DNA of 64,000 nt from positions 1 through 64,000 of the forward strand of contig NZ_QMKQ01000020.1 of assembly GCF_003287975.1 (NCBI RefSeq), read 5' to 3'. Positions 8,178 through 48,045 of this stretch are shown here, one piece after another. Below the pieces are notes generated by a model that saw only the letters and a list, made by a program, of their open reading frames with translations, was not told the origin of the DNA and searched no databases. Every line of letters begins with the position of its first letter. Positions within the stretch are counted from its first letter, which is position 1. The stretch comes from Arthrobacter sp. AQ5-05 (GTDB lineage: Bacteria; Actinomycetota; Actinomycetes; Actinomycetales; Micrococcaceae). Both the position numbers and the translations under genes were made by a program.

Positions 8178-8600
8178 ATGCAGCGAACCATGTTCAAGTC
8201 CAAGATCCACCGTGCCACGGTCACCCATGCGGACCTGCACTACGTCGGATCCATCACCATCGACGCGGACCTGCTCGACGCTGCGGACATCCTGCCCGGC
8301 GAGCTGGTCTCGATCGTCGATGTCACCAACGGCGCCCGGCTGGAAACGTACACGATCGCCGGGGAACGCGGCTCGGGAGTCATTGGCATCAACGGTGCCG
8401 CGGCCCACCTGGTCAACGTGGGAGACCTGGTCATCATCATCACCTATGCCTCCATGACCAACGCCGAGGCCCGCGCCTACAAGCCGGCCGTGGTGCACGT
8501 GGATGAAAACAACGCCATCTGCGCGCTGGGAACCAACCCGGCCGAGGCGTTTGCCGACGGCCTGGAAACCCCGCCGTTCGCCATCTTCGCCGACGCCTGA
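8178..8600 (+). CDS. panD: Aspartate 1-decarboxylase proenzyme
   Basis: Pyruvoyl-dependent enzyme making beta-alanine from aspartate for pantothenate synthesis. The 140-residue proenzyme shows [20 protein letters not shown]; self-cleavage between Gly24 and Ser25 creates the pyruvoyl cofactor. [10 protein letters not shown] and [11 protein letters not shown] are also typical. The ATG has a clear AGGAGA ribosome site. It stands alone here rather than with panC, a common arrangement in actinobacteria. Confidence 0.95.
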
Positions 8601-8648
8601 AAAGCGCCCCGGTCGTTCCTGCACCCTGAATGGCGGCATGATGGAACC

Positions 8649-10337
8649 ATGGAAAACACTGCCGCGCACTCCTGGACCAAGAACTACCAGCCGGGCGTCC
8701 CGGCCGAGATCGAGCTGCCCACCGAATCGCTGAGCGCGATGTTCGAGCGATCCGTCGCCGAAGCCGGGGATAGCCCCGCCACCGAATTCTTCGGCCGGCG
8801 CACCAGCTACCGCGAGCTCGGCGAGCAGGTGGAACGCGCCGCCGAGGGCCTGCGCAAGCTCGGGGTTCGCGCCGGAGACCGGGTCGCGCTGATCCTGCCG
8901 AACTGCCCGCAGCACGTCATTGCGTTCTACGCGGTGCTGCGTCTGGGCGCGGTGGTCGTGGAGCACAATCCGCTGTACACCTCCCGCGAACTGCGCCACC
9001 AATTCGAGGACCACCAGGCCCGAATTGTCATCGCCTGGGACAAGGCGGTCGAATCCGTGCGCGAGTTCCCGAAGGATGTGCGCATCGACACCGTCATCTC
9101 GGTCAACCTGCTAGAGGCCTTCCCGACAGTGAAGCGCCTGGCACTGAACCTGCCGCTGAAGAAACTCCGCGCATCCAAGGCGGCACTGACGGCTGCGGCA
9201 CCGGGGACCATGCCCTGGAAGGATCTGCTCAAGGCCGAGCGACTCGATGCGGCCCACCCGCGCCCGGGCGTGGAGGACCTGGCGGTCATCCAATACACCT
9301 CCGGAACCACGGGCAACCCCAAGGGCGCGATGCTCACCCACTACAACCTGTACGCCAACGCGCTGCAGGGCGAGGCCTGGATGGCCGGGGCCCGGGAACG
9401 CAAGGAAATCCTCTACGCGATCCTGCCCATGTTCCACGCCTTCGGCATGACCCTTTACCTGACCTTCGGGGTGAAGAAGCAGGGCCTGCTGGTGCTTTTC
9501 CCGAAGTTCGACCCGGACCTCGTCCTGGAGGCCATGAAGAAATCCCCGGCCACCGTGTACTGCGCGGTCCCTCCGATCTACGAGCGCACCGCCATGGCAG
9601 CCAAGGAAAAAGGCGTCTCGCTGCGCTCGGCCAAGTACTGCATCTCCGGGGCCATGAACCTACCCGACCACGTCGTCGAGCTCTGGGAATCGGTGTCCGG
9701 CGGCCTGCTGGTCGAGGGGTATGGCATGACCGAATCCTCCCCGGTGGCCCTGGGCAACCCGTTCCACCCGACCCGGCGCACCGGCACCATCGGGGTGCCG
9801 TTCCCCTCCACCCTGATGAAGGTCGTTGATCTGGACGACCCTGACCTGGAAGTGGCCCAGGGGGAACCGGGCGAGTTGCTGCTCAAGGGCCCGCAGGTGT
9901 TCTCCGGGTACTGGAACAACCCGGAGGAAACCGCCAAGACGCTCACCACGGACGGCTGGTTGCGCACCGGGGACGTGGTGACCGTCGATGCCGACGGCTT
10001 CGCCACGATCGTGGACCGCGCCAAGGAACTGATCATCACCGGCGGCTTCAACGTCTCGCCGACCGAGGTCGAGTCCGTGCTGCGCGCCCACCCGGAGGTG
10101 AAGGACGCCGCGGTGTTCGGCAAGGCGCTGGAACGCGGCGGGGAAATGGTGGTTGCCGCGGTGGAGCTGGAGCCCGGGACGGAGCTGGACGAAGAGGCGC
10201 TGCGCGAGCACTGCCGCACGCAGCTGGCCGGGTACAAGGTGCCCAAGCGGATCGTGGCCATTGAGGACCTGCCCCGCTCGATGCTCGGCAAGATCCTGCG
10301 CAAGCAGGTCCGGGAACAGGTCAATCCGGGCTTGTAA
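8649..10337 (+). CDS. Long-chain fatty-acid-CoA ligase (AMP-forming)
   Basis: A 562-residue acyl-adenylate-forming enzyme. The P-loop YTSGTTGNPKGAML lies near residue 220, EGYGMTESSP near 357 is the A5 motif, GWLRTGDVV precedes the hinge, and VSPTEVE plus the final GKILRK lysine form the C-terminal subdomain. It activates fatty acids with ATP and CoA for beta-oxidation or lipid synthesis. Length and N-terminal linker fit FadD-type ligases. It follows panD by 48 bp and may be co-transcribed. Chain-length preference is unknown. Confidence 0.9.
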   Translation: MENTAAHSWTKNYQPGVPAEIELPTESLSAMFERSVAEAGDSPATEFFGRRTSYRELGEQVERAAEGLRKLGVRAGDRVALILPNCPQHVIAFYAVLRLGAVVVEHNPLYTSRELRHQFEDHQARIVIAWDKAVESVREFPKDVRIDTVISVNLLEAFPTVKRLALNLPLKKLRASKAALTAAAPGTMPWKDLLKAERLDAAHPRPGVEDLAVIQYTSGTTGNPKGAMLTHYNLYANALQGEAWMAGARERKEILYAILPMFHAFGMTLYLTFGVKKQGLLVLFPKFDPDLVLEAMKKSPATVYCAVPPIYERTAMAAKEKGVSLRSAKYCISGAMNLPDHVVELWESVSGGLLVEGYGMTESSPVALGNPFHPTRRTGTIGVPFPSTLMKVVDLDDPDLEVAQGEPGELLLKGPQVFSGYWNNPEETAKTLTTDGWLRTGDVVTVDADGFATIVDRAKELIITGGFNVSPTEVESVLRAHPEVKDAAVFGKALERGGEMVVAAVELEPGTELDEEALREHCRTQLAGYKVPKRIVAIEDLPRSMLGKILRKQVREQVNPGL

Positions 10338-10438
10338 CCCGCACCTGCGGTCCGGCACCAAAGTGCTGGTGGCTTATCTGACCATGTCAGGGACTTGTCC
10401 CTGGCGTGCTGCCTGTGCGACCTTGAAAGTATTCCCCC

Positions 10439-10504
10439 ACAAGACGGGGAATCCGGACGATGGGTGCCGTACCCGGTGCCCTCGAAGCCGTCTGGGCGAC
10501 GGCG
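10439..10504 (+). promoter_or_regulatory. Guanidine-III-like riboswitch sequence, rearranged, overlapping the SMR start
   Basis: At 10453-10477 the sequence reads CCGGACGA, a 5-nt variable block, then GCCGTACCCGGT. Both conserved blocks match the 5' part of the guanidine-III (ykkC-III) aptamer as known from actinobacteria. The P1 arms CCGG (10453-10456 and 10473-10476) are intact. The usual 3' half, containing ACAAGACGG, is not downstream; an exact ACAAGACGG sits upstream at 10439-10447 instead. ACGGCG at 10499-10504, inside coding sequence, could supply a substitute P2 strand. The aptamer block contains the only in-frame ATG of the exporter gene. Confidence 0.6.
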
Positions 10505-10765
10505 TTGGGCAAGTCAGAGGGCTTCTCCAAACTGGCCCCGTCCGCGGTGTTTGTGGCGGGGCTGGCCCTGGGCATGGCCGGGCTGGCGATTGCGATGAAG
10601 GAATTGCCGCTGGGTACCGCCTATGCGGTGTGGGTCGGAATCGGTGCGACGCTGACAGTCGTCTACGCGATGATCACCGGTGCTGAAACTGTTTCCGTCC
10701 TTGAAGTGCTCTTCCTGCTGATGATCGTTGGCGGTGTCGTGGGCATCAAGTCGCTCCACGCCTGA
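10460..10765 (+). CDS. SMR-family guanidinium exporter (Gdx/SugE type), shortened N-terminus
   Basis: A 101-residue four-helix small multidrug resistance protein. GALEAVWATALGKSEGF carries the essential membrane glutamate, here residue 9, and LPLGTAYAVWVGIG is the Gdx/SugE signature of helix 3. Family members place the glutamate near residue 13, so about four residues of helix 1 are missing, and MGAVP is encoded by riboswitch-like sequence. It probably exported guanidinium as a proton antiporter dimer. Whether the shortened first helix works is uncertain; the gene may be a deletion derivative. Confidence 0.65.
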   Translation: MGAVPGALEAVWATALGKSEGFSKLAPSAVFVAGLALGMAGLAIAMKELPLGTAYAVWVGIGATLTVVYAMITGAETVSVLEVLFLLMIVGGVVGIKSLHA

Positions 10766-10798
10766 CGGTGAAATCGTGGCGCCCCCACGAAGAATGAG

Positions 10799-10834
10799 CG
10801 GACCCCCGGGCGCCCCATGGCCGCCGGGGGTCCG
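10799..10834. terminator. Hairpin terminator after the SMR gene
   Basis: Perfect 11-bp arms CGGACCCCCGG (10799-10809) and CCGGGGGTCCG (10824-10834) with a 14-nt loop, 34 bp after the SMR stop. No strong T-run follows, as is common in high-GC actinobacteria. Confidence 0.65.
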
Positions 10835-10914
10835 ATCTCAGTCCCACCCCTTGATTAAGCCCCGGGTTCATCGAATACTTGGGAAGGTCGTGACATGTTC
10901 TTGGGGGAGAAGCT

Positions 10915-12183
10915 TTGGATCACTATGAGTTCTTGGGGGTGGGGCGTTCCGCATCGCCCAATCAGATCAACGCGGCCGCAAGGTTGGCGATCTGGCGCAA
11001 TCGAAGCGACGTCCAGCTGACCGAGCGGATCATGGGCGCCTGGTACATCGTGGGGGACCCGGACAGGCGCTTCGATTACGACTACTGGTTGCTGACCAAC
11101 CCGTCGTCAGTGGAGCAGTACCCGCCGATCGACCATGGTGCTGCCACCCAGGACGTTCCCGAGCCCGAGGTGCCGCCTGCGATCCCTGAGGTACCTGCGG
11201 CAGCTGTGGCTGCACCGCCGCGCCGGGTGATGGGCCCGTTGCCGCCCGAACGGGTGTCCGGCAATCCGACCCGGCAGCTGCGCGAGGCCGAACCCGAGCC
11301 GCCTGCAACGCCTGGGCCAACCGGCGGGCCGACCCCGCCAAGCGAAGCACCGGTCGCGGCGGCGCCGCGATTCGACCCGGAGCAGTTGTCCTGGTGGGAA
11401 GAAACCCTGGGACGCGAGGAAAGGATCGGGTCGGGCCACGGCCTGCTGCGATTATTGGTGGTCCTGGGTCTCGTGGCCGGGGTGCTGGGATCGATGCTCG
11501 TGCTGGTTGCCGCCCCGGCTCCCGTCGCGTTGGTGCCCATCGGGCTGTGCGGCGTAGGGCTGGTGTTGGTCAACCGCCTCTGGCCGTATGCGGCGACTCG
11601 GCGGGCGGTGGCGCAGCGGGTGTTTGGCGTGGGCGGCGGGGCGTTGGCCAACGGGTGGAGCCGGTTCAGGAAGGAAAATATCGCCAAGGGCGTGATCGGG
11701 GAACGGCGCACCGCCCTGGCACTTGAATCGCTATTGCGGATCCCGGGAACCCGGATTTTCCACGGGCTGCGCTTTCCGGGCAGCACCGTCGCAGACATCG
11801 ACCATGCGGTGGTCAACGGGGACCGGGTGCTCTTCATTGATTCGAAGTTCTGGAAACCGGGGGAATACCGGTGGCTGGATGCCGACAAACTCGGATATGT
11901 CCGTGGACGGCGCATCGACCGGCGGGACATCCACATGGACCACGTACAGCGCCACCCCCTGACGGCCAAGGCCGCGGCCGAGGTCGGCTGCCACGTGCTG
12001 ATCCACCCCAATGATGAGGGCGCGATAACGTTCACCGCCGGGGCGCTCATTTCCCCGACGGGGATACCGGCAACAGGCGTCCAGGACGGGATCGAGATGA
12101 TTGGGCGCTGGCTGTTGCAGGGGCAAAAATGCGGGTTGGTCGACCGCTACGTGATGGCCCGGATGATCGCACTGCTGAAATAG
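10915..12183 (+). CDS. J-like domain / NERD nuclease-related membrane protein
   Basis: A 422-residue protein with an unusual architecture. Residues 1-55 resemble a DnaJ J-domain (DHYEFLGVGRSASPNQI and GDPDRRFDYD), but the HPD tripeptide needed to stimulate Hsp70 is absent. A proline-rich linker (about 70-150) leads to two hydrophobic segments (about 176-220). Residues about 255-360 form a NERD domain, with GVIGERRTALALESLL, DIDHAVV and LFIDSKF giving the Glu/Asp-x-Lys-like nuclease core. The TTG start has a GGGGGAGA ribosome site. The function is unknown: DNA or RNA processing at the membrane is possible. Confidence 0.7.
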   Translation: MDHYEFLGVGRSASPNQINAAARLAIWRNRSDVQLTERIMGAWYIVGDPDRRFDYDYWLLTNPSSVEQYPPIDHGAATQDVPEPEVPPAIPEVPAAAVAAPPRRVMGPLPPERVSGNPTRQLREAEPEPPATPGPTGGPTPPSEAPVAAAPRFDPEQLSWWEETLGREERIGSGHGLLRLLVVLGLVAGVLGSMLVLVAAPAPVALVPIGLCGVGLVLVNRLWPYAATRRAVAQRVFGVGGGALANGWSRFRKENIAKGVIGERRTALALESLLRIPGTRIFHGLRFPGSTVADIDHAVVNGDRVLFIDSKFWKPGEYRWLDADKLGYVRGRRIDRRDIHMDHVQRHPLTAKAAAEVGCHVLIHPNDEGAITFTAGALISPTGIPATGVQDGIEMIGRWLLQGQKCGLVDRYVMARMIALLK

Positions 12184-47929: not shown

Positions 47930-48045
47930 GAATCAAGAGTGTCAACTTACAAGCCCTGGCTTGTTGACCGGCAACCCTCTCACGGTGGTGGGGTGCTCCA
48001 GGTGATGATTCGGCCTTCCGGAACCCCGGAGGCAAGTACCGCACA
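47930..48045 (+). ncRNA. SAM-IV riboswitch
   Basis: The sequence follows the actinobacterial SAM-IV fold. P1 is formed by GAATCA (47930-47935) and TGATTC (about 48006-48011). CAAGCCCTGGCTTG is the P2 region, CCGGCAACCCTC and GTGGGGTGCTCCAGGTGATG hold the conserved SAM pocket, and the later hairpin CCTTCCGG/CCGGAGG plus GGCAAGTACCGC fits the second domain. It binds S-adenosylmethionine. About 70 bases later comes a flavin reductase; expression is probably turned off when SAM is abundant. Confidence 0.87.

Follow-up and report, generated by a model that had tools for sequence, protein, structure and literature searches.

The window, meaning the whole 64,000-nucleotide stretch of Arthrobacter sp. 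AQ5-05 that was analysed (contig NZ_QMKQ01000020.1, positions 1 to 64,000), contains an SMR-family open frame of the Gdx/SugE type that begins within what is left of a guanidine-III riboswitch aptamer. Upstream of this gdx remnant, at 8181-10337, lie genes for aspartate 1-decarboxylase (panD) and for a long-chain fatty-acid CoA ligase. When the window was scanned with Rfam at curated cut-offs, a guanidine-III match was absent; the sole entry returned was a SAM-IV riboswitch aptamer on the plus strand (47931-48044, 85.5 bits). The features of the locus are as follows.

10431 to 10452, plus strand: optional 5' hairpin of the guanidine-III element, from the RNA fold and the RF01763 alignment of the 5' hairpin; its loop varies among congeners
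10453 to 10477, plus strand: 5' part of the guanidine-III aptamer core, CCGGACGA + TGGGT + GCCGTACCCGGT, from the RF01763 alignment
10460 to 10765, plus strand: SMR-family (Gdx/SugE type) open frame of 101 aa whose starting ATG falls within what is left of the aptamer, from PF00893 and alignments
10473 to 10478, plus strand: deletion junction, inside the one copy of the direct repeat CCGGTG that is left, from pairwise and multiple alignment
10499 to 10504, plus strand: ACGGCG, a coding sequence that is identical in the congener G010, which has an intact aptamer
10571 to 10573, plus strand: Gly codon at the position of Ser42 of Gdx-Clo, from comparison of 108 distinct loci

The original prediction placed the 5' conserved blocks of the guanidine-III riboswitch, with the correct 5-nt spacing, at the start of an exporter gene, and these blocks are present: CCGGACGA occupies 10453-10460 and GCCGTACCCGGT 10466-10477, with a spacer of 5 nt between them, and both 5' blocks expected of family RF01763 (guanidine-III, ykkC-III), CCGGACGA and GCCGTACCCGG, are found at 10453-10477. 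The first 24 bases of this core are identical in all eight aligned congener loci. The covariance search proposed as a check returned an RF01763 match under relaxed thresholds, covering 10428-10508 (E 2.1e-4 in the window scan), but its score of 30 bits lies below the gathering score of 36 bits. The alignment carries a 17-nt insert before the 3' strand, which is matched only to the coding bases GACGGCG and leaves the ACAA of the 3' block unmatched; the downstream 3' strand ACAAGAC, which pairs in P2, is missing relative to G010. In the RNA fold, 10431-10437 are paired with 10446-10452, and ACAAGACGG at 10439-10447 makes up the loop and 3' arm of this 5' hairpin. Compared with the family, the locus has the 5' hairpin, CCGGACGA, GCCGTACCCGGT and a place upstream of an SMR gene; however, apart from its low score, it differs in the deletion of the 3' strand ACAAGACGG and of the ribosome-binding site.

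The 101-aa frame can start only at the ATG at 10460, the codons that extend it upstream to the nearest stop encoding KYSPTRRGIRT, and, as had been claimed, this only start of the exporter lies inside the aptamer element. A first helix lacking about four residues was likewise predicted correctly: the conserved Glu is residue 9 in the window frame and residue 13 in G010, so four residues are missing, and the native ATG has been deleted. The PF00893 profile is matched at 64.6 bits against a cut-off of 23.7, which places the protein in the SMR family, while the top NCBIfam match, SugE, reaches 75 bits and remains below the equivalog cut-off of 126. A review of the family (PMC9574504), from which the list of binding-site residues was taken, describes Trp16, Ser42 and Trp62 of Gdx as holding the central Glu13, and in that description removing the hydrogen-bonding capacity of Trp16, Ser42 or Trp62 substantially impairs transport. 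These positions were compared in 110 loci (30 together with the best 80 of at least 539, and so a sample of the most similar), which reduce to 108 distinct cores with the window included. Glu13, Trp16 and Trp62 are present in all 108 and Tyr59 in 107, and the window keeps all four; the Ser42 position is occupied by Ser in 107 and by Gly in the window alone, leaving it with four of the five binding-site residues. The window gene therefore resembles Gdx/SugE exporters (PF00893) in its overall family match and in its equivalents of the central Glu, Trp16, Tyr59 and Trp62, but differs from them in the shorter helix 1, the lost native start, the Gly for Ser42 and the score under the SugE cut-off. 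A promoter scan of 10330-10900 did not find a consensus site.

The closest congener compared, G010 (locus L010), aligns with the window over 3307 columns with 2923 identities. The alignment has one large gap, of 61 nt, between the aptamer and the gene, and the remaining gaps are of 2-9 nt. In G010 the order is CCGTACCCGG, the 3' block with ACAAGACGG, a ribosome-binding site, the ATG, and then TCCGGTGTCC inside gdx, whereas in the window CCGTACCCGG is joined directly to TGCCCTCGAAGCC. The aptamer of G010 is intact (56.2 bits) and is followed by the ribosome-binding site, start codon and a full-length gdx. In each of the eight congener gdx loci (L010-L017) the aptamer is complete, at 56.2-63.3 bits, and a native ATG stands 12 codons before the Glu codon; this ATG is missing in the window, and in the alignment of SMR N-termini that had been suggested the window start is shorter by four residues. 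The sequence CCGGTGT is found at both ends of the deletion in G014, G009, G002, and G013, while in G010 only CCGG is shared. Of the explanations originally offered, fusion of riboswitch and gene by a deletion is supported: there is a single large gap, of 61 bp, relative to G010, and it is flanked by a short direct repeat. We infer that the congener form is ancestral, and the short repeat fits a loss of the 61 bp by replication slippage or short-repeat recombination.

With considerable confidence, then, the locus can be read as an ordinary guanidine-III/gdx unit broken by a 61-bp deletion. The starting state would have been a guanidine-III riboswitch and the guanidinium exporter gene gdx in their ordinary arrangement, with one copy of CCGGTG(T) in the aptamer and the other in gdx codons 9-11. 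A deletion between the two copies would have taken out the 3' conserved strand of the aptamer together with the ribosome-binding site, the native start codon and the codons that begin helix 1; an ATG within the aptamer remnant would, by chance, have come into frame with what remained of gdx. The remnant RNA would no longer be able to form the guanidine-III pseudoknot core, and the gene would most likely be a recent loss-of-function allele. The arrangement had been expected to be unusual whatever its origin; it is instead most likely the remnant of an ordinary switch. Some observations count against parts of this reading. What is left of the frame contains neither stop nor frameshift, and the aptamer core shows no change over its first 24 bases, which makes the decay, if real, a young one; retention of the Glu13, Trp16, Tyr59, and Trp62 equivalents counts against loss of function; and the junction has been seen in one draft assembly only.

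Other explanations, which are not strictly exclusive of one another, also have to be considered. The main rival to a dead allele is weak constitutive translation of a short Gdx: the deletion would have freed gdx from riboswitch control, and a short working exporter would be made constitutively from the ATG at 10460. The frame is open from this ATG, the upstream leader is nearly identical to that of G010, and the protein retains the central Glu, the two Trp and the switch Tyr. The laboratory strain Escherichia coli ZX-1 provides a precedent, since in the published account of that strain (PMC13064478) a 20-bp riboswitch deletion upstream of gdx is presumed by the authors to be the cause of the observed constitutive gdx expression. 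Both cases involve a small deletion that breaks a guanidine riboswitch ahead of gdx; however, the 20 bp deleted in E. coli lie outside the gdx frame, from 30 to 11 bp in front of it, and expression was raised, whereas the window has lost the start of the gene together with its ribosome-binding site. Ahead of the window ATG, the strongest anti-SD duplex (-5.7 kcal/mol) is weaker than those of the eight congeners (-6.4 to -8.2 kcal/mol), and its GGGG is paired in the 5' hairpin of the predicted RNA fold. A helix 1 short by four residues and a Gly at Ser42 also argue against a working protein, and constitutive production of a short Gdx is considered unlikely. The draft consists of a single assembly of 116 contigs and the junction was present in no other genome searched, as might be expected of an assembly or sequencing error; however, short-read assembly errors do not typically take the form of a clean 61-bp loss at a repeat of 6-7 bp, the Gly at the Ser42 position sits outside the junction, and an error of this kind is quite improbable.

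Two of the rivals concern the aptamer itself. The original prediction allowed for a compact guanidine-III aptamer overlapping the coding sequence, with ACGGCG at 10499 closing P2; in its strongest form, the fusion would have made a working compact element in which the remnant and coding bases sense guanidinium and which carries the start codon of the short exporter. The 30-bit alignment of coding GACGGCG to the 3' strand, with its 17-nt insert, is what such an aptamer would predict, but the score is below the cut-off and the ACAA is unmatched; in the description of the core given by the crystal-structure paper (PMC5696562), every nucleotide between P1 and P2 is >97% conserved, and G28, A30, C31, A32, and A33 stack before the entry to P2. 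An identical ACGGCG is present in G010 beside an intact aptamer with its true 3' block, and the minimum-energy fold, from a method that cannot show pseudoknots, instead pairs GCCGUC (10487-10492) locally with GACGGC (10498-10503). The apparent closure of P2 by ACGGCG is therefore probably due to chance, and the compact form, like the guanidinium-sensing fusion built on it, is very improbable and was not favoured. A circularly permuted aptamer, in which the 3' block has moved upstream, is scarcely tenable. The claim behind it was accurate in that ACAAGACGG is present upstream, but these bases belong to the ordinary 5' hairpin rather than to a displaced 3' block. G010 has ACGAGACGG at the same place in the hairpin in addition to a normal downstream 3' block, and the other seven aligned congeners have different loops; these congener hairpins, together with the true 3' block in G010, indicate that there has been no permutation.

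For the preferred reading, a recent loss-of-function allele, selection on the gene was also examined. With four outgroups, two of which are nearly identical to each other, a script assigned 8 nonsynonymous and 5 synonymous changes to the window branch since its split from G010; this count is small, includes ties (one nonsynonymous change in codon 83 and one synonymous change in codon 45), has the junction codon among the 8, and leaves two further changes unplaced. For the G010 branch the script gave 3 nonsynonymous and 2 synonymous changes; reading by hand altered these counts to 1 and 4, since in the codons of two of the three it is the window branch that carries the amino-acid change. The probability of at least 8 nonsynonymous changes out of 13 is 0.003 at an omega of 0.1 and 0.021 at 0.15, with approximate numbers of sites, while the comparison between the two branches is not significant even with the hand-read G010 counts (Fisher p = 0.29). 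Omega between window and G010 is 0.353 over 95 codons and 0.315 over 94. Among the neighbours, the upstream ligase has an omega of 0.066 in the same comparison, but the downstream flanking gene (10915-12183) is likewise high at 0.277, which counts against the preferred reading. Against more distant congeners, omega is 0.066-0.149 for the window and little lower for G010 (0.067-0.123); equal-length congener pairs without the window give 0.041-0.123, except for G014-G009 at 0.376, a pair only two changes apart. Taken together, the branch counts, probabilities, Fisher result and omegas suggest, but do not prove, relaxed selection on the window gdx.

Among the window's own genome and those of relatives, an SMR match at E <= 0.001 was found in 42 of 59. 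An RF01763 match at E <= 0.01 was found in 12 of the 15 genomes of the genus; 11 are above the cut-off, and the twelfth is the window's genome. Three of the 14 congeners (G001, G003, and G006) have neither an RF01763 match nor a close gdx, so the aptamer/gdx unit is dispensable in the genus. The Rfam scan covered 15 of the 29 relative loci fetched, the window's own apart, and found a guanidine-III aptamer above the cut-off in 14; it was not found in L022. In the set of 108 distinct loci, CCGGACGA lies no more than 400 nt upstream of the Glu codon in 90, with 18 lacking it in that range. The exact ACAAGAC is kept in 77 of the 90, and the other 12 loci without it (L018 and 11 more, the window apart) all score above the Rfam cut-off. 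The distance from CCGGACGA to the Glu codon is 89-101 nt in most of the 90 loci and 31 nt in the window alone. Across 396 genomes of the order, the exact fused pattern was found only in that of the window; the denominator here counts genomes rather than gdx carriers. A search of titles and abstracts found no report of a guanidine-III aptamer fused to gdx by deletion. In a Nocardia colli contig (L081, 2921-3276), a complete guanidine-III aptamer (56.3 bits) precedes a gdx frame that is shortened at its start, with the Glu codon 61 nt from CCGGACGA, compared with about 90 in most loci, and a nearby ATG out of frame; judged from the sequence, the beginning of gdx seems to have been lost there independently.

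Within the genome of AQ5-05, the match at 10428-10508 is the best found for RF01763 (30 bits, E 4.1e-4, with 150 of 1305 first-look candidates scored). The only other match under E 0.01, at 25.7 bits, was rejected as a second aptamer. It lies at 15598-15675 of contig C1 (L002 1501-1578), and is probably a chance match because it has no ACAAGAC block and falls within a 613-aa open frame. A search of the genome for guanidine-I riboswitches found none at E <= 0.001. Besides the window gene, the PF00893 search found only one tandem pair of SMR genes (L135/L136, contig C1 376258-376889). By eye, the pair lacks the EAVWATALG stretch of the gdx set and was rejected as a second gdx, and the genome scans found no guanidine-III or guanidine-I match beside it; the two genes are a possible backup exporter.

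The window locus is a case of ordinary decay and of low general interest; for it to gain greater significance, either the RNA of the fusion or the shortened protein would have to be active. It clearly illustrates, in a natural setting, that a riboswitch and the start of its gene can be lost together through one small deletion. It also serves as a warning that an aptamer fragment of high identity, lying in frame with a gene, can mimic a new regulatory design.
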